Below the pieces are notes generated by a model. The model saw only the letters and a list, made by a program, of their open reading frames with translations. It was not told where the DNA came from and searched no databases. Made by a program: the position numbers and the translations under genes. Source: Catellatospora bangladeshensis (GTDB lineage Bacteria > Actinomycetota > Actinomycetes > Mycobacteriales > Micromonosporaceae). From it: DNA of 64,000 nt. Location of the stretch: positions 124,001 to 188,000 of the forward strand of contig NZ_BONF01000017.1 of the NCBI RefSeq assembly GCF_016862575.1. The letters are read 5' to 3'. How positions within the stretch are numbered: position 1 is the stretch's first letter; the number at the start of each line of letters is the position of its first letter. Below are positions 21,276-46,370 of the stretch, piece by piece.

Positions 21276-22217
21276 ATGCGCCACGATCCCGACGTCGTTC
21301 CGGTCACCCGGATCCCCGCCGACGTCAACACCCCCGACAAGATCGCCTTCGGGCTGACGGCCCGCCAGCTCGCGGTCCTCAGCATCGCCGCCGTGGCCGT
21401 CTACGGCGTCTACCGCGCCCTGGCCGGGTATGTCAGCCCGTCGGCGATGCTGGCGATCATGCTGCCCCTGGGCGGCCTGGCCACGGCCATCGCGATGGGC
21501 ACCCGCGACGGCCTGCCTCTGGAATCGTGGCTGCTGGCAGCGCTGCGCTTCCTGCCGGCACCGAAGGCGCTTGCCCCAGCCGCCGACGGGCTGCACCATC
21601 CCCCACCCGTATGGGCACCGCAGGTCGACAACCTGCGGCTGCCTTCAGTGCTGAGGCTGCCCGCCAGCGGCATCGACGAGCAGGGCATCGTCGACACCGG
21701 AGAAGCGGCCGTGGCGCTGGTGGCGTGCACGACCCTGAACATCGGCCTGCGCACCGGAGACGAGCAGGCCGCGCTGCTGGCCGGATACGGCCGGTGGCTC
21801 AACAGCCTCACCGGGCCGGTCCAGGTCGTAGTGTCGACGCAGCGCGTCGACCTGTCCAGCCACGCCCAGCGCATCACCGAACGCGCCGACCTGCTCACCA
21901 GCCCGGCTCTAGCGGCGGTGGCCGTGGAGTACGCCCGGTTCCTCAGCGACCTGGCCGAGCACCACGACCCGTTGTGGCGGACCGTCACCATCGCCGTCAC
22001 CGCCACCGCCACCGGAGACAAGACCCGCAGCAGCGAGGCGACCCGCCGCGCCGAGCAGGCGGCGACCGCGCTGACGGCGCTGGGCGCCAGCGCCGCGGTC
22101 CTGGACGGTGCGCGCGCGACCGCGGTCCTGACGACCGCGGTCGACCCCTACATCCCCACCGACGCGACCTGGCCACGGTCGCGCCCCACCGATGTCGTCA
22201 CCGGAGGCAACCCGTGA
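21276..22217 (+). CDS. PrgI-family T4SS protein (VirB3-like)
   Basis: 313 residues. The N-terminal 90 residues show PrgI features: VTRIPADVNTPDKIAFGLTA, then two close membrane helices (about 34-52 and 56-76), as in VirB3/PrgI proteins that dock to the VirB4 ATPase. The remaining 200 residues form a soluble domain (ACTTLNIGLRTGDEQAALLA) that in this group corresponds to VirB4's N-terminal domain. Strong site AAGGAGC before ATG 21276. The stop overlaps the VirB4 GTG (GTGA), so they are coupled. Confidence 0.8.
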   Translation: MRHDPDVVPVTRIPADVNTPDKIAFGLTARQLAVLSIAAVAVYGVYRALAGYVSPSAMLAIMLPLGGLATAIAMGTRDGLPLESWLLAALRFLPAPKALAPAADGLHHPPPVWAPQVDNLRLPSVLRLPASGIDEQGIVDTGEAAVALVACTTLNIGLRTGDEQAALLAGYGRWLNSLTGPVQVVVSTQRVDLSSHAQRITERADLLTSPALAAVAVEYARFLSDLAEHHDPLWRTVTIAVTATATGDKTRSSEATRRAEQAATALTALGASAAVLDGARATAVLTTAVDPYIPTDATWPRSRPTDVVTGGNP

Positions 22218-24031
22218 AGCTCCCCCGCGCACTGCGCAGACTCTCCCCCGCCACCGCTGCGAGCCCCGCCGATTCGGCCGGGCTCGCAGCGGTTGTGGGC
22301 CCGTCAGCGGTGGAGGTGACGCCGAACTGGCTGCGGGTCGGTGACGGCTACGCCGCCACCCTCGTGATCAGCGGGCTGCCGACGCTGGTCGGTCCGGCGT
22401 GGCTGTCGCCGCTGACGTCGTGGCCGGGCCGCATCGACATCACCCAGCACATCTCGCCGTTCACCGGCCCGCAGTCGGCGCAGATGCTGCGCCGCCAGCG
22501 GGCCCGGCTGGAGTCCAGCCGCCGGCTCGACGCCGACCAGGGACGGCTTACCGACCCGGCGACCGAAGCCGCGGCCGAAGACGCCGCGGACCTGGCCGAC
22601 CGGGTCGCGCGCGGGCAGTCGAAGCTGCACGACGTCGCGACCTACGTGACGATCCACGCCACCGACCTCGACGAGCTTGCCGAAGCCGTCGCCCACGTAC
22701 GGGCCAGCGCCGCGAGCACGATGCTCGACACGCAGCCGGTGACGTTCCGGCAGCTGCAGGGCTGGACGTCGACCCTGCCGTTGGGCACCGACAGTCTGCG
22801 GATGCGCCGGGTCATGGACACCGAAGCCCTGGCCGCGGCGTTCCCTCTCGCGAGCGCGGACCTGCCGGCGCCGCTGCCGGGTGAGCCGGCTCCGGCCGGT
22901 GGGGTGCTGTACGGGATCAATCCGGATTCGGCTGGGGTGGTTTGGTGGGATCGCTGGGCGCAGCACAACCACAACAGTGTCGTGGTGGCCCGTTCCGGTG
23001 CTGGCAAGAGCTACTTCGTCAAGCTGGAGGTGCTGCGCAGCCTCGCCGACGGTGTGCACGTCGCCGTCGTCGACCCTGAGGACGAGTACGTGCGCCTGGC
23101 CCGGGCCGTCGACGGGACCGTCATCCAGCTCGGTAGACCCGGTGTGCGGGTCAACCCGCTCGACATCCCGCCAGGCGACCGCCGCAGCGACGCACTGGTA
23201 CGGCGGGCCCTGTTCGTCCACTCGCTGGTCGCGGTCCTGCTCGCCGAGCAGCCTACGGCCGCCGAGCAGGCCGCTCTGGACACGGCAATAGCCACGGCGT
23301 ACGCCGGTGCGGGCATCTCCCACGACCCGGTCACGTGGACGCTGCAGGCGCCGCTGCTGCGTGACGTCGCCGCAGCCCTGGCCGAGCAGGGCGACGATGC
23401 CGCTGCCGGGCTGGCTGCCCGGCTCACGCCGTGGACGACCGGGTCGTTCAAGGAGCCTTTCGACGGGCCGACGACCACGGTTCCCGCCGGGCAGCTGGTG
23501 GTCTGGTCGACGCGGCAGCTGGCTGACGAGCTGCGGGCGCCGGGCATGCTGCTGGCGCTCGATGCGATCTGGCAGGACGTCGACGCCGTCCCCGCGCGCG
23601 GCGGTTCGGCACTGCGGCGGCTGGTGATCGTCGATGAGGCGTGGCGGCTGCTGCACGACGGTGAAGGCGCCCGGTTCCTGTTCCGGTTGTCCAAGCAGGC
23701 CCGCAAGCGCCGCGCCGGGGTGTCGGTCGTGACGCAGGACGCTGCTGACCTGCTCGGCTCGCAGCTCGGGCAGGCCGTCATCGCCAATGCGGCCACCCAG
23801 GTGCTGATGCGGCAGGCGCCGCAGGCCATCGACGAGATCACCGAGGCGTTCGGGCTGACCACCGGCGAAGCCCGCGCCCTGCTGGCAGCACGGCGCGGCG
23901 AAGGGATCCTGCTGGCCGGCGCTCACCGGGTGTCGTTTCAGGCCTTGGCCAGCCCGGCCGAGCACCGGCTGTGTGTCGGTGATCTCGACCGGCTCGACGA
24001 AGACGACGAGGACGAGGAGGCGCCCCGATGA
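22214..24031 (+). CDS. virB4: VirB4/TraC-type secretion ATPase
   Basis: 605 residues. The N-terminal CagE/TrbE-like region is followed by an AAA/FtsK-HerA-type ATPase core with Walker A ARSGAGKSYF (about 259-268), Walker B LVIVDEAWRLL (about 470) and a conserved QDAADLLGS/ANAATQVLMRQ region. The enzyme powers pilus assembly and substrate transfer at the inner membrane. The GTG start is fixed by the 4-nt overlap with the upstream gene; a longer frame from 21527 is spurious. It overlaps the coupling protein ATG by 4 nt. Confidence 0.9.
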   Translation: MKLPRALRRLSPATAASPADSAGLAAVVGPSAVEVTPNWLRVGDGYAATLVISGLPTLVGPAWLSPLTSWPGRIDITQHISPFTGPQSAQMLRRQRARLESSRRLDADQGRLTDPATEAAAEDAADLADRVARGQSKLHDVATYVTIHATDLDELAEAVAHVRASAASTMLDTQPVTFRQLQGWTSTLPLGTDSLRMRRVMDTEALAAAFPLASADLPAPLPGEPAPAGGVLYGINPDSAGVVWWDRWAQHNHNSVVVARSGAGKSYFVKLEVLRSLADGVHVAVVDPEDEYVRLARAVDGTVIQLGRPGVRVNPLDIPPGDRRSDALVRRALFVHSLVAVLLAEQPTAAEQAALDTAIATAYAGAGISHDPVTWTLQAPLLRDVAAALAEQGDDAAAGLAARLTPWTTGSFKEPFDGPTTTVPAGQLVVWSTRQLADELRAPGMLLALDAIWQDVDAVPARGGSALRRLVIVDEAWRLLHDGEGARFLFRLSKQARKRRAGVSVVTQDAADLLGSQLGQAVIANAATQVLMRQAPQAIDEITEAFGLTTGEARALLAARRGEGILLAGAHRVSFQALASPAEHRLCVGDLDRLDEDDEDEEAPR

Positions 24032-26070
24032 GCGGCCCGCTCGCCACAGGGCTTGCGCAGGGCCCGGATTCGGCGCGTGAGCTGTCCGACGCTGTCACCG
24101 CCGCGGCAGCGTGGTGCCGGGACCGTGCGTGGGTGGGGCTGGTCGCGTTCGCGGTGGTGTTGGGCGTTGCCGCGGCTCGTGCCGGGTGGCTGCGGCGCGC
24201 CGACCGGATGCTGCAGGCCGGCGCCCAGCAGGTCACGATCGCGGCGCCGCCGCAGGTCGACCCGGCCGGGATCACCGCGTTCTGGGCGGCCATGGCAGCG
24301 CTGCTGACGCGGGGCCGCTGGCGGCTGTGGCGGCCGCGACCGCACGTGGCCTGGGAGTACCGGTGGGCCGGACGGGAGCTCACGATCGTGCTGTGGGTGC
24401 CGGGCACGGTCAAGGTCACGCCGGTGCTGGCCGCGATCCGGGGCGCGTGGCCGGGCGTGACCGTATCGGCGACCGATGCCGGGCCCGCGCTCAGCCGTCG
24501 GCAGGGCGGCCCTGTCGCGGCGTCGGCGGGCACCGCGTTGGTACCGGTGATGCCGGCCTGGTATCGGCTGCTCACCGACCACGACACCGACCCGCTGCGG
24601 GCCGTCGTGGCTGCGGCGTCGGGGCTCAAGGACAACGAGTCCGCGTGTGTGCAGATCCTGACCCGCCCGGCGTCGCGGCGGCAGCTGCGGCAGCTGCGCC
24701 GGGGCGTGGCCGCGCTGCGCACCGGCCGCAGCCCCGGCAGCGTCGCCGATCCCGGCTGGTGGCTCAGCGCGGCACTGGACGGGCTCGAGCGGCTGATCAG
24801 CCCGTCGCGGCAACCGCACCCGAGTACGGGGCCGTCGCAGCAGGCGTTGCTGGCCGTCGACCCGCAGCGTGACCGCGACGCCCGTGCCGCGGTCGAGAAA
24901 CTGGCCGCAGGTCCTCAGTGGGAGACCGCGATCCGCATCGCGGTGGCCCACCACGCCGCACCCGGGCGGCCGCCGGGCGCGACCGCTCACAGCCGCCTTG
25001 TCACGGCGGTCGAGGCGCTGGTCGGTGCGACCGGTCCGTGGACGGGACGCAACCGGCTGCGGCGGCTGCGGATGCCACATCCGGCGGCGGTCGTCGCGGC
25101 CCGGTCCCTGCGGCACGGATGCGTCCTGGACGCCGTGGAGCTGGGCAGCCTCGCCGCGCTGCCACATGACCTGGCCGTGCCGGGCTTGCTGCGGGCGCGG
25201 GCCAAGACGATGCCCGCGCCGGTCGATGTCCCCACCGGCGGCCGCGGCACCAAGGTCCTCGGCCGGGCCGAATGGGGCGGGCATCCGGTCGCGCTGCCGG
25301 TCGCCGACGCCCGCCAGCACGTGCACATCGTCGGCAGCACCGGCTCCGGCAAGTCGACCCTGATGCTGAACATGATCCTCGACGACATCAGCTCAGGGCG
25401 CGGCGCGGTCGTCATCGACCCCAAGGGTGACCTGGTCCGCGACGTCCTGGACCGGATGTCGGCGAAGAAGGCCAGAAGCGTCGTGCTGATCGACCCCGAC
25501 ATCGACACCGGAACGACACTCAACCCGCTGCTGGGCGATGACCACGACTTGGTCGTCGACAACATCGTGTCGATCTTCTCCAGGATCTTCGCCAGGCACT
25601 GGGGACCCCGCATCGACGACGTGCTGCGGGTGTCGTGCCTGACGTTGATGCGGCACGCCAACGCGACGCTGACGCTGGTGCCGCCGCTGCTCAACGACTT
25701 CAAGTTCCGGCGCCGGTTCACCGAGGACCTCACCGACCCCGAAGGCCTGCGCGGGTTCTGGGAATGGTTCGAAGCCACCCCGCCGGCCGTGCGCACACAG
25801 ATCATCGGGCCGGTCCAGGCACGGCTGCGGTCGGTGCTGCTGCGCCCGTTCGTCCGCCGCACCCTCGGCACACCGTTCAACTCCTTCGACATGGGCGAGA
25901 TCCTGGACGGCGGCGTGCTGCTGGCCCGGGTGCCCAAGGGCGTCATCGGTGAGGACACCGCCCGCCTGATGGGCTCGTTCGTCCTCGCCTCGGCATGGCA
26001 GGCCGCCACGGCGCGGGTCCGGCTCGACGAAGCCGACCGCCGCGACAGCGTGACCTACGTCGACGAGTGC
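24028..26070 (+). CDS. virD4: VirD4/TraD-like coupling ATPase, 5' exon (interrupted by group II intron)
   Basis: Residues 1-681 of an 829-residue protein. N-terminal membrane helix (about 35-52), soluble region, then the P-loop HIVGSTGSGKST (about 436-444) and the DPKGD motif after VVID (about 462-468). The exon ends in SVTYVDEC, the second conserved (Walker B) motif of this family, normally DE[CF]HNFL. The frame past 26070 runs into intron sequence and stops at 26091, which mimics a truncated gene. Precise splicing joins Cys681 to His682 and restores YVDEC-HNFLNLP. Coupling proteins bring DNA-protein substrates to the secretion channel. ATG overlaps the VirB4 stop. Confidence 0.88.
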
Positions 26071-28277
26071 GTGCGCCAGGAAGCGCTGTAGTCCCAGGTC
26101 AGCTTGCTGACCTGGGGATGCAACACCGGGAGGGGATGAAAGAGCCCCTCCACCGGCCAGTCGCAGCTGGCTGGTGAAGCTGAGGACAGCCCGATCCGGG
26201 AAACGCCGGTGAGGGTGAGAGCAGTCCTGACAACGACGGGACGGTCTGGAACTACCAGACAGGCCGGGCCCGGCGAGCAACGCGGAAAGGTGTACGAGAG
26301 GAACCGGCGTTTGAACCCCCGTAAGCGACGTGCCAGCTCAAATCTGGTGGATATGGGCTGGTGTGCAGTGCGTGACCACCGCCGCGACACAGCGACGGTG
26401 GTCAACTCCGTAACCGTTTGGCATTCGACGGGAAGGAGGCCAGTGGGAAAGCCTGCGGCGTACCACTGGCGATGCTGCCGGGGCAGAGTCGGGCACCTAA
26501 TCCGTGGACCGGTGTGCAGTGAACCTGGGAACCATCCGTGGTCGCCCTACCGGCCGGGAAGCCATCCCGGTCGAGGGCAGGACCGTTGTCGTCTGACGGC
26601 CACGGCATGGGACGGAGGACCCGTAGTAGTCCGAGCGCGGGAAAGCCGCGTACATGGCGAAGGGGTCCAGCAAGTCAAGCAGCCGAAGAACTGGAAGATC
26701 AGGAGGTCCGTCGGTGAATACCGATGAGCTGGCCTCGGCTCTGATGAGGGCCGAGATCCGGGTACTGGAGATCCAGACCAAGCTGCACCGTTGGGCGACC
26801 AACGATCCTCACAAGAAGTTCGATGATCTGTTCAACCTCGTCACTGACCCGGCGTTCCTTCTGGTCGCCTGGGATCGGGTGCGGGGCAACAAGGGTGCCA
26901 AGACCGCCGGGGTCGACGGCCGCACTGCGGCGTCGATCCAGGTCACAGTGGGAGTGCAAGAGTTCCTGAACGGGCTTCGCAGCTCGTTGAAGGACCGCAC
27001 GTTCTGCCCGCTGCCGGTGCGTGAGCGGATGATCCCGAAGGCGGGCGGCAAGCTGCGCCGTCTGGGGATTCCGACGATCGCCGACCGGGTGGTGCAGGCG
27101 TCCTTGAAGCTGGTGTTGGAGCCGATCTTCGAGGCGGATTTCCTCCCGTGCTCCTACGGGTTCCGCCCCAAGCGCCGGGCCCGCGATGCTGTCGCGGAGG
27201 TGACCTTCCTGACCAGCGGCAACAGCCGCTACGACTGGATCGTGGAAGGTGACATCAAGGCGTGCTTCGACGAGATCTCCCATCCTGCCCTGATGCATCG
27301 GGTGCGGATGCGGATCTCCGACAAGCGCGTGCTGGACCTGGTGAAGGCGTTCCTGAAGGCGGGCATCCTCTCCGAGGAGCGGATGCTGCGCAAGACCGAC
27401 GCCGGCGCCCCGCAAGGGGCGATTCTTTCTCCGCTGCTGAGCAACGTGGCCCTGGCGGTGCTGGACGAGCACATCGCCCAAGCGCCTGGGGGTCCGTCGT
27501 CAGCGGCCCACGTCAGGCTCAGACGCCGCGCGAAGGGGCTGCCGAACGTCCGGCTGGTCCGCTACGCCGACGACTGGTGCCTGATGGTGGCGGGCACCCG
27601 CGAAGACGCGGACGCCCTACGGGAGGAGATCGCCGGGGTCTTGGCCACGATGGGCCTGCGCCTGTCGGAGGACAAGACCTTGATCACCCACATCGAGGAG
27701 GGTCTGGACTTTCTCGGCTGGCGCATCCAGCGCCACGTCAAGAAGGGCACCGCAGACCAGCGCCACGTCTACACCTACCCGTCGAAGAAGGCCCTGGCCA
27801 ACATCACCGGGAAGATCAAGACGCTGTGCCGACAGACCACGAACCAGACTCTGGCCGACCTGCTGCTTGGCCTCAACCAGGCAGTTGCGGGCTGGTGCCA
27901 ATACTTCCGACCCGGGGTGTCGTTCCAGACGTTCCAGTACCTACGCGCGTTCCTCTGGAAGCACGTGTGGTCCTGGATCCGTCGCAAGCACCCCAAGACC
28001 ACCTGGAAGGACCTGCGCCGCCGCTACAGCGGCGGACGCTGGTGGCCCAGCGACGACGGGATCACCCTGTTCGACCCCGGCAAGGTACGCACGATCGTGT
28101 ACCGCTACCGGGGAGCGAAGATTCCGACGCCATGGTCAGAGCCCATCTGAGGATCACACCGCACAACGGGACTTGTGGAGAGCCGGATGCGCTGAGAGGC
28201 GCACGTCCGGTTCGGGAAGCGGTCCGCAGAAACCCACTGGCGGGAACACCAGCAGGGCGCTGCGGGCCGACTTTCAC
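26071..28277 (+). mobile_element. Group II intron (complete, 2207 nt)
   Basis: 5' end GTGCGCC at 26071, 3' end AC at 28277. Domain V is the 34-nt hairpin 28180-28213 with the AGC triad at 28181-28183. Domain VI pairs 28215-28229 with 28260-28275 and leaves a bulged A at 28270, 8 nt from the 3' end. EBS1 GCATTCG (26421-26427) pairs with IBS1 CGAGTGC (26064-26070, one G-U); EBS2 CGACGT (26326-26331) pairs with IBS2 ACGTCG (26057-26062). The intron-encoded protein lies in domain IV. All parts needed for splicing are present, and the host gene is in frame across the junction. Confidence 0.92.
26714..28150 (+). CDS. ltrA: Group II intron reverse transcriptase/maturase
   Basis: 478 residues from GTG 26714, chosen because AGGAGGT (26701-26707) is 6 nt upstream; ATG 26654 in the same frame would add 20 basic residues. 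RT domain with PKAGGKLRRLGIPTIADRV, FEADFLPCSYGFRP, GDIKACFDEI, GAPQGAILSPLLSNVAL and catalytic YADD (about 284-287). Maturase domain X follows (GLNQAVAGWCQYFR). The C-terminus ends in a basic DNA-binding-type segment without the Cys/His pattern of an HNH endonuclease, so mobility would use the retargeting route of endonuclease-less introns. Lies wholly in intron domain IV. Confidence 0.92.
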   Translation: MNTDELASALMRAEIRVLEIQTKLHRWATNDPHKKFDDLFNLVTDPAFLLVAWDRVRGNKGAKTAGVDGRTAASIQVTVGVQEFLNGLRSSLKDRTFCPLPVRERMIPKAGGKLRRLGIPTIADRVVQASLKLVLEPIFEADFLPCSYGFRPKRRARDAVAEVTFLTSGNSRYDWIVEGDIKACFDEISHPALMHRVRMRISDKRVLDLVKAFLKAGILSEERMLRKTDAGAPQGAILSPLLSNVALAVLDEHIAQAPGGPSSAAHVRLRRRAKGLPNVRLVRYADDWCLMVAGTREDADALREEIAGVLATMGLRLSEDKTLITHIEEGLDFLGWRIQRHVKKGTADQRHVYTYPSKKALANITGKIKTLCRQTTNQTLADLLLGLNQAVAGWCQYFRPGVSFQTFQYLRAFLWKHVWSWIRRKHPKTTWKDLRRRYSGGRWWPSDDGITLFDPGKVRTIVYRYRGAKIPTPWSEPI

Positions 28278-28724
28278 CACAACTTCCTCAACCTGCCCGG
28301 ATCGGTCGGCGACATGCTCGCCGAGGCCCGCGGCTACCACTTCGGCCTCGTCCTGGCCCACCAGAACCTCACCCAGCTGCCCCGGGAGACGCAGCTGGCC
28401 CTGTCCGCCAACGCCCGCACGAAGATCTTCTTCTCAAGCTCGCCGGAAGACGCCACACACCTGGCCAAACACACCAACCCCGAACTCGACGACCACGACC
28501 TGTCCCACCTGGACGCGTTCCGGGCAGCCGCACGCCTGCTGGTCAACAACCGCGAGACCGCGGCGTTCGTGCTCCGCACCAATCCCGCACCGCCGCTGGC
28601 CAACGAGACCACCGCCGTGCGGCAGGTCATCACCGCGGCCGCCCGACACCGGCGCACGGCCGCGGTCGCCCGCCTCGCTGGCGTCGGCGACACCGATGCC
28701 GCCCCGGACGAACCCGGTGCCTGA
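28278..28724 (+). CDS. virD4: VirD4/TraD-like coupling ATPase, 3' exon
   Basis: Residues 682-829, starting HNFLNLPGSVGDMLAEARGY directly after the intron. LVLAHQNLTQLP is the conserved sensor region of coupling ATPases, and the segment LSANARTKIFFSSSPEDATH is also typical. It has no start codon or ribosome-binding site of its own, so it is only expressed through splicing. Stop at 28722, followed by a hairpin. Confidence 0.88.
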   Translation, partial: HNFLNLPGSVGDMLAEARGYHFGLVLAHQNLTQLPRETQLALSANARTKIFFSSSPEDATHLAKHTNPELDDHDLSHLDAFRAAARLLVNNRETAAFVLRTNPAPPLANETTAVRQVITAAARHRRTAAVARLAGVGDTDAAPDEPGA

Positions 28725-32711: not shown

Positions 32712-33134
32712 ATGACCTAAATACGCACGCCCTCAGCCGGCGCGGGACCGTCCGCAGCGCAGCAGCCCGTCCACCTCAACGTCGGCTCGACGTGGCTGCC
32801 CGCCACCGTGACCGAGGTCCTGACCGGCGGCAGGGTCACCGTCCACTACCTCGTCGGCACCGTCCCGATGACCGCGATCGTCGCGGACTGGCTGGTCCGC
32901 GCCGCCGAGGTGCCTTGTTCGGCCCTGTTGCCGACACGTCGCCGCTGTCATGACACCAGCGTGTGGACGTGTCCTGCTTTGCGGCGCCAACGCCGCGGTA
33001 CGGGTTCCGGCCCGTGCGCACCCGGCCAAGCCGGGTCATCCGTCCGGCATCACCGGACGACAACGGCCTCAGACGAGGCAACGCCTGAGGCCGGACGAGC
33101 AATGGTCACTCTGGTAAGGAGCCAAGACCGATGA
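32712..33134 (+). pseudogene. Small gene with a stop at codon 3
   Basis: AGGAG (32699-32703) and ATG 32712 are placed as for neighbouring genes and share their GGAGTCCAC leader, but the third codon is TAA. The same frame then stays open to 33134, encoding HLNVGSTWLPATVTEVLTGG and VHYLVGTVPMTAIVADWLVR, which looks like a small β-barrel (SH3-like) domain. GTG 32808 in frame could restart translation. The end overlaps the DUF932 ATG as ATGA. The last 70 codons have weak coding bias. Either a recent nonsense mutation or translation from 32808. Confidence 0.4.
33020..33094 (+). promoter_or_regulatory. Three consecutive stem-loops before the DUF932 gene
   Basis: Perfect hairpins ACCCGGC-CAA-GCCGGGT (33020-33036), CGTCCGG-N5-CCGGACG (33041-33059) and CGGCCTCAG-N12-CTGAGGCCG (33065-33094) follow one another within 75 nt, 37 nt before ATG 33131. 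In RNA they would form a structured leader, as terminators or translational control elements. Confidence 0.5.
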
Positions 33135-34348
33135 CAACCGTAGCATTCGGCCCTCACGCCGATGTGAACGACGCGTTCGCCAGCGAGCGGGCCCGGCAGC
33201 TGGAGGCTGTCGAGCGCAGGCAGGCGGACCTGAAGACCCGGCTGGACGCCGGGACCCTCATCCCGCTGGGCGACGGCCGCTACCGGGTCAACGACCCGGG
33301 CAGCTGGGACAACGGCGAGATCTGGATCCAGCAGGACAGCGGCCTGGTCGTCCCGCAGCACGGCCTGGACATGTCCACCGGCCGGGCGGCGCTTTACACG
33401 GCCAAGCCCGCCTGGCACCAGCTCGGCACCGTGATCGAGGGCGGCACCACCGACATCGACACCGTACTCAAGGCTGGCGCGATCGACTTCGCCGTCGAGA
33501 CGTTCCCGGTGCTGTTCCGCACCCCCGACGGGCAGCTGCACGAGCTCGACGACCAGCGGGTCACCGTCCGCCGGGACACCGACGCCGGGCTCGGTGTGGT
33601 CGGCAACCGGTACGAGGTCGTGCAGAACCGCGACATCTTCGGGTTCCTGCAGGCGCTCGTCGGCCGCGACGACGTCATCTGGGAGACGGCTGGTGCGCTG
33701 CGCGGCGGGCGGCGGGTGTTCGTGACGATGCGGCTGCCGGACACGATCGTCATCGACCCGGCGGGCATCGCCGACGTCGTCGCGCCGTTCCTGGCCGCGT
33801 TCAACTCCCACGACGGCCTGACCGGCTACGAGTCGGTCGTGACGCCGTGGCGGGTGTTGTGCGGCAACACCGAGCGGTTCGCGGCGCGTGACGCCGTCGC
33901 CCGGTGGAGCACCCCGCACGTCGGCGACCCCTTGGCGCGGCTGAGGCAGGCCGAGCAGACCCTGCGCATGACGCGCAGGTACTACGCGTCGTTCGCCGCC
34001 GAGCAGGAGCTGCTGCTGGCCACCGAGCTCGCGATCGACGAGTACCTGGCGGTCGTCGCCGACGTCTGGGCCCCGCCCGGCGACGACGACGCGGATAAGG
34101 CCAAGGCCAAGTACCGGCGGTTCGCCGACGGCATGGTCCACCGGTTCGAGCAGAACGCCGACAAGCTCGGCCGCAACGCCTACGCCGCGGAGCGGGCCAT
34201 CACCGAGTTCATGGACTGGGGGCGTGGTGTGCGGGCGCCGAAGTCGATGACCGAGACGGCCTGGCGTGCCAGCCAGGCCCTTGAGGGAGACCAGGACGGA
34301 AGGAAGAACACCGCCCACAAGCGGCTGCTCACTCTCGTACGTCGCTGA
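33131..34348 (+). CDS. DUF932 phage/plasmid-like protein
   Basis: 405 residues. Matches the DUF932 / TIGR03299 'phage/plasmid-like protein' family. AKPAWHQLGTVIEGGTTDID is the usual opening of the domain, followed by GLGVVGNRYEVVQNRDIFGF, FLAAFNSHDGLTGYESVVTP and RVLCGNTE. The family is common on plasmids, phages and conjugative elements and is of unknown biochemical function. ATG 33131 has AAGGAGCC 10 nt upstream and overlaps the preceding frame by 4 nt. Confidence 0.9.
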   Translation: MTTVAFGPHADVNDAFASERARQLEAVERRQADLKTRLDAGTLIPLGDGRYRVNDPGSWDNGEIWIQQDSGLVVPQHGLDMSTGRAALYTAKPAWHQLGTVIEGGTTDIDTVLKAGAIDFAVETFPVLFRTPDGQLHELDDQRVTVRRDTDAGLGVVGNRYEVVQNRDIFGFLQALVGRDDVIWETAGALRGGRRVFVTMRLPDTIVIDPAGIADVVAPFLAAFNSHDGLTGYESVVTPWRVLCGNTERFAARDAVARWSTPHVGDPLARLRQAEQTLRMTRRYYASFAAEQELLLATELAIDEYLAVVADVWAPPGDDDADKAKAKYRRFADGMVHRFEQNADKLGRNAYAAERAITEFMDWGRGVRAPKSMTETAWRASQALEGDQDGRKNTAHKRLLTLVRR

Positions 34349-42138: not shown

Positions 42139-42458
42139 CCTCCGCCCGGGCGTCTTCGCGACACCGGCGGAGACAGCCGACGGCGCCCACGCCCTGCCTG
42201 CTCGCTCGCAGCCGGCCCCTGGAAGCGGCCCGCCAAGGTACGCCTCAGCCCGCAACTGAGCCGGCTGCACGCAGCACGGCGGCCTGACGGGTCCTTCGCA
42301 CCGGACAGATCGCCGTGCCGGGCGTGCGGTTCGCCGCCCTGATCACGCGTGCAGAAATCCGGCGGCAGGCCCGCAGGCTTCAACACCTTCCTTGCGCTCG
42401 ACGGCGAGAGATCGCCGAAAGACGGGTCGAGCGCCCCACCATCTGCAAGGAGTTCGTC

Positions 42459-43376
42459 ATGGACGACAACGTGTTCTTCTTCGACCTCGAGTGGGTGCTG
42501 CGCCTGGCGTCGCACGCCGCGGTGACCCCTTCAAGCGGGCCGTGCAATGAGCACCCCGACGGCGAATGCCCGGGATCTCTGCTGTGGGTGTCCGACGACA
42601 CGGGCGTCTACCTCGAGTCCAACGGGCTGCCTGCGGCCGAGTTCGGCCCGGGCACCAGCTCCCTGATCTACGCACGGGGATGGGAGCCGGGCGGCGAGCA
42701 CCAGGACCCTGACAGCCCGTTCGACGGCGGCTTCGTCAGCCCCTTACACCTGCGGTCGGCGACCGAGCCCGCGACCGCACTGCTGAAGCGGATGCGTGCT
42801 TCCGGCTTCCGTTTCATGTACCTGCGCCTGCCCGACGACGACGTCATCGAGGTCGGCTTCGCCGAATCCGCCGAGCTGCACCCGCAGCGCCCGGTCACCG
42901 CTGAGGAAGTCGCCCGGCGGCGGCAGACGCTCATCGAGAACATGCGGGCCACCGCGGACGGCGGCAAGTTCACGATCATGAACATCCATGCAGACAGCGA
43001 ACTTCCGACCTCCATGCTCTACACCGTCGGCCTGACCGCAGCTGGCCAACCTGAACTGCTCACCGTCGGCCTGGCCGTCGACGTCGCCCACCACATCCTC
43101 AACGACCTCGGCGAGTCCATCCGGGCAGGCGAGCGCAGGCTGCACCACGCCCAAGTCCTGACCGACGTCCTCGACGGCTTCGACGTGTGCGTGATCGAGG
43201 CGGACATGCATCTCCCCGGGCGGCTGGTACCCGGCATGGCGTACGAGGTCTTCGGCCGGCGCAACGTGCGGTTGCAGCAGATCGTATGGCCCGACGCGCT
43301 GCACCAGTTCCCGTGGGACAGCGGGTTCGACAGCGGACTCGTCCAGCCCGTGATCGGCCGACCGGCCATGCGCTAG
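42459..43376 (+). CDS. DUF4262-domain protein
   Basis: 305 residues from ATG 42459 (AAGGAG 8 nt upstream). The C-terminal DUF4262 domain (about 175-300) is clear: SMLYTVGLTAAGQPELLTVG, HHILNDLGESIRAGER and the closing LQQIVWPDALHQFPW. The N-terminal 165 residues are unassigned (FFFDLEWVLRLASHAAVTPS; acidic). DUF4262 is of unknown function and frequent in actinobacterial accessory regions. Followed by a terminator; it is the last intact gene of the secretion region. Confidence 0.85.
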   Translation: MDDNVFFFDLEWVLRLASHAAVTPSSGPCNEHPDGECPGSLLWVSDDTGVYLESNGLPAAEFGPGTSSLIYARGWEPGGEHQDPDSPFDGGFVSPLHLRSATEPATALLKRMRASGFRFMYLRLPDDDVIEVGFAESAELHPQRPVTAEEVARRRQTLIENMRATADGGKFTIMNIHADSELPTSMLYTVGLTAAGQPELLTVGLAVDVAHHILNDLGESIRAGERRLHHAQVLTDVLDGFDVCVIEADMHLPGRLVPGMAYEVFGRRNVRLQQIVWPDALHQFPWDSGFDSGLVQPVIGRPAMR

Positions 43377-44102: not shown

Positions 44103-44297
44103 TCACGACATCACCCAGCTAAGGCCCGGCGCACTTTTCGATAGCTGTACCTTTAATCACGTCATACGCTAACTTGTAAGCATTCGTTGAATTTGAGAAG
44201 TTCTCCTTGTGAGTTAACTTCGTTCTCAGCGGCCTCACGTGGACATAGCCTGCCGGGCATCTCCTCTTTGGAAACGCGTCCGTCGATTGAAGGGCTT

Positions 44298-46370
44298 ATG
44301 AAGCGAACGTCACGCGTGCTGGTTATTGGCGCCCTCATCCTCGCAGCCACCGGGATAGTTGCGGTTGAACCTGCGACAGCAGATTCACCGTCGCGTGAGC
44401 CACAGTGCCGAAAGCAGGGTTCCGCAGCCGGGGGAACCACCACCGCCGACAATCTTAGTAATGCCATAGCGGCACTCACCCGGTCAGGACTGGGAGGCGA
44501 GGCCCTAGAGGAAAAGATTGCATCCGATTGGTGCCTAAAGAAGGTTTCAGGCACCGACGGTGCCACGCAAGTCTCCTCGCGGGGCGTTAGCGTCCTAACG
44601 GAATCCGAATTCTCCATACCCAATGACGTCGGCATCTACAATGTGGCGCTGTACAAGGATCAGTATTCTAATCACTTCTACGCTTCTGGCGTATTCGAAT
44701 GGAACAACTCGAACTACTCCAAGGATGCCACGGATTTTCTCTGCAATGGCGAGAACGTAGGTGGCCTCGACGGCGTAGGTATCCGCGTTACGGGCCCTAG
44801 CTCAGGTTACTTCCATTTCGCGTCGTCTCTAACCTACTGGGGAAACCCCAGTATGGACCAGTATCCCAATGACCACGGCACTCAGACGATCAGCGCCACT
44901 CGGAGTTCTGCTCCGGGCGGCGTATCGCAGAATGAGTTCGGGGTCACGTTCATGCTGCAAGACGAGTTGATGGGGCTGAAAACCCCGGACTTGCCGCCCT
45001 TTGACGGTCACTACGCGTGCTCTATAGGCAACCTTGTAGAATCCAAATATGACTTCAATATGCATGGCGGTGCCATTGTCTACGGCTTCGACCTATTGAA
45101 CGTCACAGACCCTGAGTGCATCTTCCAAAAGGCATACATGGTCTACGGCCACTCGTACGCGGACTGGACTCCGACCGGATTTCAGGCCAGTAGAGACGGA
45201 TTCGGAGCCAGCTGGAGCGTAGTCGACAAGAGTTGGCAGGCTGGCGCGGTCGAATCCAATGCCTACAACGTCTGCCGCAATCGAACTTCTGCTCCCGGCA
45301 GCGCTGAATATGTACTGCCAGACCCAGACGTAAATCAAGGTTCGGATCCAAGCGGCGGCTCGGATCCGAGCGGCACCATCAGCCGTGCAGAGCCGGCGAT
45401 GGCGAGAGACAACGGCGACAACAGCATGACTGTCTGGCGTTGGTCCTCCAACGGTAGCGGATTCAACCGCACCACGAGTTACGAATCCGGCACCTTCCAG
45501 TTATCTGCGGTAGGTGATCGTGTCGCTAGTGGCGACGTCGATGGCGACGGGAAAGACGATATCGTCATGGCCTACCAAAACCCAGACGCGGAGAATACAT
45601 TCAGCTTCCACGTCTGGAAGAATGGGAACTCCTACGCCGGAAAGTGGTATACGTCCTCGACATTCTCGCTGGTCCCGGTGGGCGGTCGACTCGTCGTCGA
45701 CGACTTTACCGGAGACGGCAAAGCCGAACCAGCTCTCGTTCGAGATGATGGCGACGGGACCATGACGATCTGGCGATGGCAGTCCACTGGATCTTCATTC
45801 CAGCGGATCACAGATTGGAGCGCCGCTAGCGGGTTCGACCTGGCCAATGTTGGCGATCGTGCCGCGAGCGGCGATGTCGACGGAGACGGCAAGGCCGATA
45901 TCGTAATGGCCTATCAGATCAGTGACGGCACCTTCGGTTTCTATGTTTTCAAGGGAGGAATCACAAATGCCGGACGGTGGTATACCTCTGGCCAGTTCAA
46001 TTTGAGCGGCGTGGGCGGTCGGCTTGTCGTCGCAGATTTCGATGGGGACGGCAAGGCCGATCCAGCTCTTGCTAGAGACCACGGCGACACCATGACCATC
46101 TTCCGCTACCACTCCACGGGCTCGTCGTTCACTCATACAACCGACTATGTATCAGGTACGTTCCGGCTGAGCCAGGTCGGCAATAGAGTAGCTGCTGGGG
46201 ATGTCGACGGCGATGGCGATGGCGACATCGTAATGGCCTACCAGAACAGTGACGCCACCTTCACCTACCACGTCTTTAAGGGTGGAAACTCATGGGCTGG
46301 CTGGTACACCTCAGGGGCGTTTAATCTCAGCGGCGTGGCAGGGCGACTCGTTGTGGGCAATTTCAAATAG
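44298..46370 (+). CDS. Secreted VCBS-repeat protein, low GC
   Basis: 690 residues. ATG 44298 begins a signal peptide (MKRTSRVLVIGALILAATGI, cleavage near ATADS). A 330-residue N-terminal domain with several Cys is unassigned. After a GSDPSG linker (about 355-370) come alternating VCBS/FG-GAP half-repeats: DVDGDGKDDIVMAYQ, DFTGDGKAEPALVRDDGD, DVDGDGKADIVMAYQ, DFDGDGKADPALARDHGD, DVDGDGDGDIVMAYQ, each with a Ca-loop, forming a β-propeller. Codons with A/T in the third position are far more frequent than in any neighbour, so recent transfer from a lower-GC donor is likely. Weak site AAGGG upstream. Confidence 0.85.
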   Translation: MKRTSRVLVIGALILAATGIVAVEPATADSPSREPQCRKQGSAAGGTTTADNLSNAIAALTRSGLGGEALEEKIASDWCLKKVSGTDGATQVSSRGVSVLTESEFSIPNDVGIYNVALYKDQYSNHFYASGVFEWNNSNYSKDATDFLCNGENVGGLDGVGIRVTGPSSGYFHFASSLTYWGNPSMDQYPNDHGTQTISATRSSAPGGVSQNEFGVTFMLQDELMGLKTPDLPPFDGHYACSIGNLVESKYDFNMHGGAIVYGFDLLNVTDPECIFQKAYMVYGHSYADWTPTGFQASRDGFGASWSVVDKSWQAGAVESNAYNVCRNRTSAPGSAEYVLPDPDVNQGSDPSGGSDPSGTISRAEPAMARDNGDNSMTVWRWSSNGSGFNRTTSYESGTFQLSAVGDRVASGDVDGDGKDDIVMAYQNPDAENTFSFHVWKNGNSYAGKWYTSSTFSLVPVGGRLVVDDFTGDGKAEPALVRDDGDGTMTIWRWQSTGSSFQRITDWSAASGFDLANVGDRAASGDVDGDGKADIVMAYQISDGTFGFYVFKGGITNAGRWYTSGQFNLSGVGGRLVVADFDGDGKADPALARDHGDTMTIFRYHSTGSSFTHTTDYVSGTFRLSQVGNRVAAGDVDGDGDGDIVMAYQNSDATFTYHVFKGGNSWAGWYTSGAFNLSGVAGRLVVGNFK

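Follow-up and report, generated by a model that had tools for sequence, protein, structure and literature searches.

A VirD4-type coupling protein gene split by a group II intron

The 64,000-nucleotide (nt) stretch of the Catellatospora bangladeshensis genome analysed here (the window; contig NZ_BONF01000017.1, positions 124,001 to 188,000, in an assembly of 8.83 Mb and 115 contigs) carries a VirD4-type coupling protein gene that is split by a group II intron, and it is this intron, its target codons and its relatives at the same codons of other VirD4 genes that are described below. Read without splicing, the gene is an open reading frame (ORF) of 687 amino acids (24028-26091) closed by the TAG at 26089-26091, just where the initial annotation of this DNA had seen the VirD4 frame truncated; as predicted from the frame, the unspliced product stops six residues past the junction and misses its final 148 residues. 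The features of the split gene, all on the forward strand, are:

24028..26070 (+), first coupling-protein exon (VirD4-type), 681 codons, with the C-terminal end YVDEC
26071..28277 (+), group II intron, 2207 nt, GTGCGCC...AC
26089..26091 (+), in-frame TAG closing the unspliced frame, intron codon 7
26654..28150 (+), intron-encoded protein, 498 amino acids, reverse transcriptase (YADD) and maturase domain
28180..28213 (+), domain V, 34 nt, from the RF00029 match and the fold
28215..28275 (+), domain VI, from the fold, with A28270 bulged as the branch point
28278..28724 (+), second coupling-protein exon, 148 codons, with the first residues HNFLNLP

A natural empty site is present in another genome of the same genus (G009, locus L112), whose coupling protein is 86% identical at the amino acid level. 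The alignment of the window to this locus halts at 26070 and restarts at 28277 on the same L112 base, the one-base overlap being a chance match, and the codons of the empty locus read TYVDEC|HNFLNL without any break; no match to the intron sequence was found in G009. The complete 2207-nt intron with a GTGCGCC start that the initial annotation had proposed is thus delimited both by the empty site and by its own ends, and the YVDEC-HNFLNLP joint expected on its excision exists as continuous coding sequence in nature. Both VirD4 exons are open and in frame. The proposed alignment to uninterrupted VirD4 homologues gave the same picture, since all 31 homologues that read across the junction (28 from genomes and 3 from plasmids, with L130 dropped because it stops short of the site and weaker VirD4 matches kept outside this reading) are uninterrupted, their exon 1 and exon 2 homologies abutting without a gap.

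From these alignments, the junction lies in frame, one codon past a Walker B-type Asp-Glu. The claim of an insertion exactly within the motif needs a small amendment, the intron sitting one codon behind the Asp-Glu pair. Among the 31 homologues the junction motif is DE[C/A/S][H/Q]N, with Asp-Glu present in every one, and the conservation of the region is 3.64 bits compared with a mean of 2.89 bits.

The covariance-model search suggested at the same time returned an Rfam RF00029 match at 28178-28277 (58.1 bits, E 8e-9, gathering cut-off 40), the sole Rfam match at the gathering threshold in the window. No second RF00029 match was found in the whole source genome, and the intron is single-copy there. 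In the secondary structure, which was folded for domains V and VI, the 34-nt domain V is recovered and domain VI contains a single bulged A at 28270, the eighth base from the 3′ end, both as the initial annotation had placed them; the folding z-score is -6.2 for domains V and VI together and -5.6 when domain VI is taken by itself. The intron thus has a GUGYG-type start (GTGCGCC), an AY end (AC) and a bulged A28270, as expected of group II ends. The ORF at 26654-28150 matches RVT_1 and GIIM as well as TIGR04416 (350.8 bits, cut-off 300), and no HNH model was found in it at E <= 0.001, and nothing recognisable follows its maturase domain, so that the maturase does lack the HNH domain, as had been stated. 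This appears to hold beyond the window: of 71 reverse transcriptases (RTs) of the family, 69 could be measured and all 69 extend at most 17 residues past the end of the window protein, and the family as sampled is therefore without an endonuclease domain. The ratio of nonsynonymous to synonymous changes (dN/dS) of the RT is 0.25 against each of two relatives, in genomes G729 and G253, introduced below. Taken together, these sequence features indicate that the intron is complete and probably active.

Exon recognition through three pairings

The exon-binding sites (EBS) of the intron and the intron-binding sites (IBS) of the exons were located as follows, all on the forward strand:

26057..26062 (+), IBS2, positions -14 to -9
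26064..26070 (+), IBS1, positions -7 to -1
26326..26331 (+), EBS2, from covariation and its own pairing
26421..26427 (+), EBS1, one base 3′ of the family alignment column
26486..26486 (+), EBS3 (G), pairing with IBS3 C28278
28278..28278 (+), IBS3 (C), exon 2 base +1

In the window, EBS1 pairs with IBS1 at 7/7 positions (6 Watson-Crick and 1 G.U) and EBS2 with IBS2 at 6/6, in agreement with the lengths of 7 and 6 bp given earlier, and these assignments are backed by covariation over 67 distinct sites. For this comparison 75 relative introns were initially paired with their exons; L103, L076 and L055 were dropped because their ends misfit the end patterns used, which left 72 and the window, hence 73 family introns with placed ends. 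Over the six exon bases upstream of the junction the EBS1-IBS1 pairing reached 0.83 (best shuffled value <=0.555), and over bases -9 to -14 the EBS2-IBS2 pairing reached 0.77 (best shuffled value <=0.590), the observed value exceeding all 20 exon shuffles in each case. The column at 26486 is Watson-Crick complementary to the +1 base in 87% of the 67 sites, where 25% is expected and the runner-up column, ranked by its excess over expectation, reaches 40%. Since the +1 base has its partner in a distinct EBS3 and not in the base next to EBS1, the intron and its family are IIB-like. This 26486/C28278 pairing had been overlooked in the initial annotation, as had the relatives at the same site and the recurrent homing target, to which we now turn.

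The same codon junction in other VirD4 genes

A first scan of 108 other intron loci revealed no VirD4 homologue beside the intron. The idea that the VirD4 site is unique to the window was nevertheless rejected, as degenerate DNA patterns run across genomes found further VirD4 sites. The first pattern (Asp-Glu codons followed by one free codon and the start of the intron) matched in 16 of 394 genomes of the class, with an intron at 2 of the 16 places and none found at the rest; it under-counts, because the window's own copy is not matched by it. A wider pattern, which does match that copy, gave 16 places in 14 of 397 genomes of the order, an intron being present at four of them, namely the window's own copy and three places in G729, whereas none was found at the other 12.

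In all, the same junction is occupied in VirD4 genes of three other genomes, making five VirD4 genes in four genomes, and the VirD4 proteins concerned are only 42-50% identical in amino acids to that of the window. The intron of G253 is 82.3% identical to the window intron in nt over its whole length and sits at FLDEA|QNFL of a VirD4 with 42% amino acid identity. In G268 two intron ends are found on two contigs, each next to its VirD4 exon. In G729, a single 7.07-Mb contig, there are three copies of 2201 nt that are 100% identical to each other and 84.4% identical to the window intron. Copies a and c interrupt two VirD4 genes at this same codon junction; the two proteins have 47% and 50% amino acid identity to the window's, the genes are 67-72% identical to each other in nt where aligned, and they are the only VirD4 homologues found in this genome at E <= 0.001. 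Copy b (L190:4174-6374; G729:C1:1390673-1392873) resides in the RNA ligase gene rtcB, with the junction PIVDEC|HNLVEV and both flanks matching PF01139. Because the copies in the two VirD4 genes and in rtcB are identical, the same intron has inserted into three genes where their DNA codes for DEC|[H/Q]N.

Phylogeny sets introns and host genes apart. The RTs of the window, G729 and G253 form one clade with a support of 100/100, whereas in a VirD4 tree of 36 rows the five genes with an intron occupy four separate positions, with the 31 empty genes in between.

The EBSs follow their targets. Over the 13 positions of EBS1 plus EBS2, with G.U accepted as a pair, the window EBSs pair at 13/13 with their own site and also with the empty G009 site, at 12, 12 and 11 of 13 with the sites of G729 copies a, b and c, and at 8/13 with the G253 site. 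The G253 EBSs pair at 13/13 with their own site and at 7 to 9 of 13 with the other sites. EBSs therefore match sites of their own sublineage at 11-13/13 but those of the other sublineage at only 7-9/13.

A family that also inhabits transposase genes

The relatives in the intron tree come nearly all from actinomycetes. In the wider family (at least 79 loci) the RTs are 51-74% identical to that of the window and the RNA ends align, but the introns are inserted elsewhere. Transposase families scored above their Pfam cut-offs in the flanks, scanned apart, of 16 of 23 insertion loci, a rate that is biased because the 23 loci were hand-picked, often for a recognisable motif; the targets include IS3-type rve, IS66, IS110, IS256, ISL3, ISAzo13, Tn3, DDE_5, Mu-type and others, and the remaining seven (L043, L069, L063, L053, L014, L064 and L060) gave no transposase match in their flanks. 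Neighbours in the RT tree often share the same target gene.

Many junctions of the family fall at a hydrophobic-Asp motif, for example LWLDAT|YLKV, VCVDEK|TSIQ and WVADI|TY, which we take to be the catalytic Asp motifs of DDE transposases. An open sense frame, as judged by a filter, is present around 44 of the 73 introns, 34 of these in phase 0, and a clear one is missing in the other 29. A first count gave the motif at 18 of 31 sites, compared with a mean of 7.0; when the flanks were treated separately and the genus Mycobacterium was excluded, it was found at 18 of 30 phase-0 sites (6.7 expected, 0/5000 draws as high), and Asp alone at -2 to -4 at 15 of 30 (5.4 expected, 1/5000 draws as high). 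The sites are not independent, and when we combine them into target groups, partly by motifs known for such targets, 11 of 17 groups show the motif. IS701-like and ISAzo13 sites are exceptions, being without the motif as scored.

Several further arrangements were observed in the family. At L066:508 the intron lies antisense to an IS630-like CMDEK motif, which is thus met on the opposite strand. At L049:4446 and L050:4418 the 5′ exon closes with the start of another family intron (GTGCGCCACGAGGCGCT), that is, the introns are nested. In L097 (1842-1915 and 4445-4903) and L100 (2686-2751 and 4523-4995) the first 65-74 bases of the intron lie more than 1.7 kb upstream of the remainder, as if another element were nested inside. 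Ten loci (L034, L037, L038, L039, L040, L041, L042, L044, L045 and L054, thus without L043) have introns at one common site (SAFFAAEL), close to the end of what we take to be an IS3-type OrfA; they come from several bacterial families, and the one flank scanned is HTH_Tnp_1.

The coupling protein gene and its neighbours

Two genes flank the split gene on the forward strand:

21527..24031 (+), ATPase of VirB4 type belonging to this transfer module, P-loop_TraG 63.1 bits
29009..30055 (+), protein of the replication-relaxation family, encoded downstream of the split gene, Replic_Relax 156.2 bits

Exon 1 matches TrwB_AAD_bind (PF10412) with 28.3 bits, above the cut-off of 20.5, and contains the P-loop GSTGSGKST about 240 residues upstream of the junction. 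The VirB4-type gene also matches the CD1110 family, with 260.9 bits, under its cut-off of 325. With the P-loop motor domain in exon 1 and a VirB4-type gene directly upstream, the split gene is assigned to the type IV coupling proteins (T4CPs). The description of its product as the key transfer ATPase calls for caution, since the source genome contains further VirD4 homologues, and the two that were read are both uninterrupted at the Walker B-type motif. Other elements in the cell thus need not depend on splicing. In these two genes the motif is encoded as DEA and only 5/7 EBS1 positions find a partner, which may be the reason why they are empty.

A similar module is seen in locus L141 of the Embleya plasmid NZ_CP108778.1 (270424-292238), where the order PrgI, ATPase, VirD4, replication-relaxation and NlpC/P60 is like that of the window; PLSDB types this plasmid as non-mobilizable. 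Elsewhere in the window, an FG-GAP repeat protein (PF13517, 83.3 bits) is encoded at 44187-46370, and DUF932 and DUF4262 proteins are encoded at 33131-34348 and 42315-43376.

A lineage probably homing to Walker B-type codons

We consider it very probable that the window intron is an IIB-like, endonuclease-less member of a small lineage that homes to the Walker B codons of VirD4 genes, with the coupling protein restored by splicing. The predicted homing site of this lineage is the hhDE[C/A]|[H/Q]N codons of VirD4-type proteins in actinobacterial conjugative elements. Strong genomic evidence points to recent mobility, and from the identical copies in G729 we infer retrohoming as the route. A ribonucleoprotein would locate a target of about 14 nt via EBS1, EBS2 and EBS3 pairing and reverse-splice into it, after which the RT would copy the intron; given the missing endonuclease domain, another primer would be needed. 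Because the paired target of about 14 nt encodes a conserved motif, diverged elements would be enterable at the same codon, and the same pairing would at times accept look-alike codons elsewhere, as in rtcB. Splicing from the mRNA would rejoin the coupling protein frame, and, as the initial annotation had reasoned, the exact in-frame junction suggests that the full coupling protein is made only after splicing in the cell, on which conjugation would then depend. The spliced intron could also re-open the coupling protein mRNA and lower conjugation, as with Ll.LtrB.

Several observations weigh against this interpretation or narrow it. Occupied VirD4 sites are rare, with 2 of 354 family genomes (the window genome and G729) and 2 of 394 class genomes, the latter by the pattern blind to the window's own copy. 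Pairing at occupied sites can be imperfect: G729 copy c has three G.U pairs in its EBS1 pairing, and the EBS2 pairing of copy a has four Watson-Crick pairs and one G.U out of six. That the junction would be the most conserved stretch of the protein was rejected, as it ranks 81st among 819 ten-residue windows and the P-loop ranks first. The name Walker B is suggested by the motif, its spacing from the P-loop and a weak TraG-D_C match beginning at the junction motif (18.3 bits in the empty-site homologue, below the cut-off of 22; 25.6 bits in an Embleya homologue). A search of solved-structure sequences with the empty-site homologue gave the name no confirmation, as it matched a single T4CP and covered just the beginning of its motor domain. 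Finally, dN/dS of exon 2 is 0.18, a value in which the time before and after the insertion is inseparable.

The most serious alternative, though still improbable, is that the intron is splicing-dead and the coupling gene, perhaps the whole element, dead with it, its role being served by other VirD4 genes. The two uninterrupted homologues in the same genome would suit such a view. Domains V and VI, the boundaries, the EBS/IBS pairings, the RT ORF and both exon frames are all intact, however, and the presence in G729 of copies that are 100% identical speaks for mobility, and hence splicing, in close relatives. Less credible is an ancient insertion into VirD4 that was inherited and precisely lost in most homologues rather than acquired by repeated homing. 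A junction common to all intron-bearing VirD4 genes, and intron lineages that have diverged to 82-84% nt identity, would be expected from it, yet the introns are far more alike (82-100% nt) than their host genes (42-50% amino acid identity to the window, 67-72% nt within G729), the window's sister gene with 86% amino acid identity is empty, the intron-bearing genes are scattered in the VirD4 tree, and an identical copy sits in rtcB, so that simple vertical inheritance is rejected. We also reject, as very improbable, a one-off insertion that fell into the coupling gene by chance and has no special relation to the site. The single copy in its own genome and the 108 other loci without an adjacent VirD4 homologue first spoke for it, but it fails to account for the recurrence of this codon junction in three further genomes, one of which has it twice, for EBSs that vary in step with the target and for the single clade of VirD4-lineage RTs.

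A bolder version of the homing interpretation, to which we give less than even credence, is that the family as a whole tracks the codons of catalytic motifs (about 14 nt, often encoding a hydrophobic strand and then Asp), crossing between unrelated enzymes, and that conjugation in G729 is gated by splicing. If true, shared codons would be the sole link between transposases, a conjugation motor with its Walker B and the RNA ligase RtcB, and conjugation of the G729 elements would be gated wholly by the splicing of one intron, a retroelement controlling its own vehicles. The rtcB copy, if spliced, would make a splicing-dependent RNA-repair gene.

Comparison with known systems

Unlike the window intron, Ll.LtrB belongs to subgroup IIA and encodes an endonuclease domain. 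In their setting, Ll.LtrB and Ef.PcfG are close parallels to the window lineage: they reside in relaxase genes at a catalytic motif, at the same position in different conjugative elements (PMC5072309), and thus share with it a conjugation gene, a conserved catalytic motif and a gene that needs splicing. An ectopic chromosomal copy is described there too, to be compared with the rtcB copy outside VirD4 (PMC5072309). They differ in that the relaxase is interrupted at a catalytic histidine motif in lactic acid bacteria and enterococci, whereas here it is the coupling protein of an actinomycete. In L. lactis, spliced Ll.LtrB re-opens the relaxase mRNA and conjugation is reduced (PMC6003770).

The one VirD4 intron case met in our literature search is B.th.I2, an ORF-less group II intron in the VirD4 homologue of plasmid pAW63, lying in a 935-bp gap in a gene for a coupling protein of the same type (PMC1196294). 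It is inserted much nearer the N terminus, with 223 amino acids before and 660 after compared with 681 and 148 in the window, the 223-residue part being first because the gene is on the minus strand, according to the printed coding sequence lengths (PMC1196294). Introns in relaxase motifs and an ORF-less intron in a VirD4 homologue are thus already known. A Walker B-codon homing lineage in actinomycetes, target-matched EBS change and an rtcB copy were not found in this search, in which a paper on Orientia did turn up that contains the terms group II intron, VirD4 and Walker B (PMC10732058).

RmInt1 (ISRm2011-2, Sinorhizobium meliloti) resembles the window intron, by description, in its endonuclease-less protein and EBS3-IBS3 pairing (PMC4238363), and its reverse splicing is directed chiefly at single-stranded DNA on the template of the lagging strand (PMC8914252). 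Like the window intron, it is housed by a mobile element and may hold back the spread of that element (PMC4238363, PMC8914252), its host being an insertion sequence where that of the window intron is a conjugation gene. The actinobacterial introns in transposase genes belong to the same family as the window intron and differ from it in their targets.

Set beside these systems, the window lineage shows that, among conjugation genes, introns settle not just in the relaxase gene but also in that of the coupling ATPase, at its Walker B codons, with a conserved protein motif apparently kept as homing site, by adapted EBSs, across hosts only 42-50% identical to the window's. The three identical copies of G729, two in VirD4 and one in rtcB, seem to record a recent movement, and with them the idea of look-alike codons becomes directly testable. 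For annotation, the warning is that split VirD4 genes may be functional.

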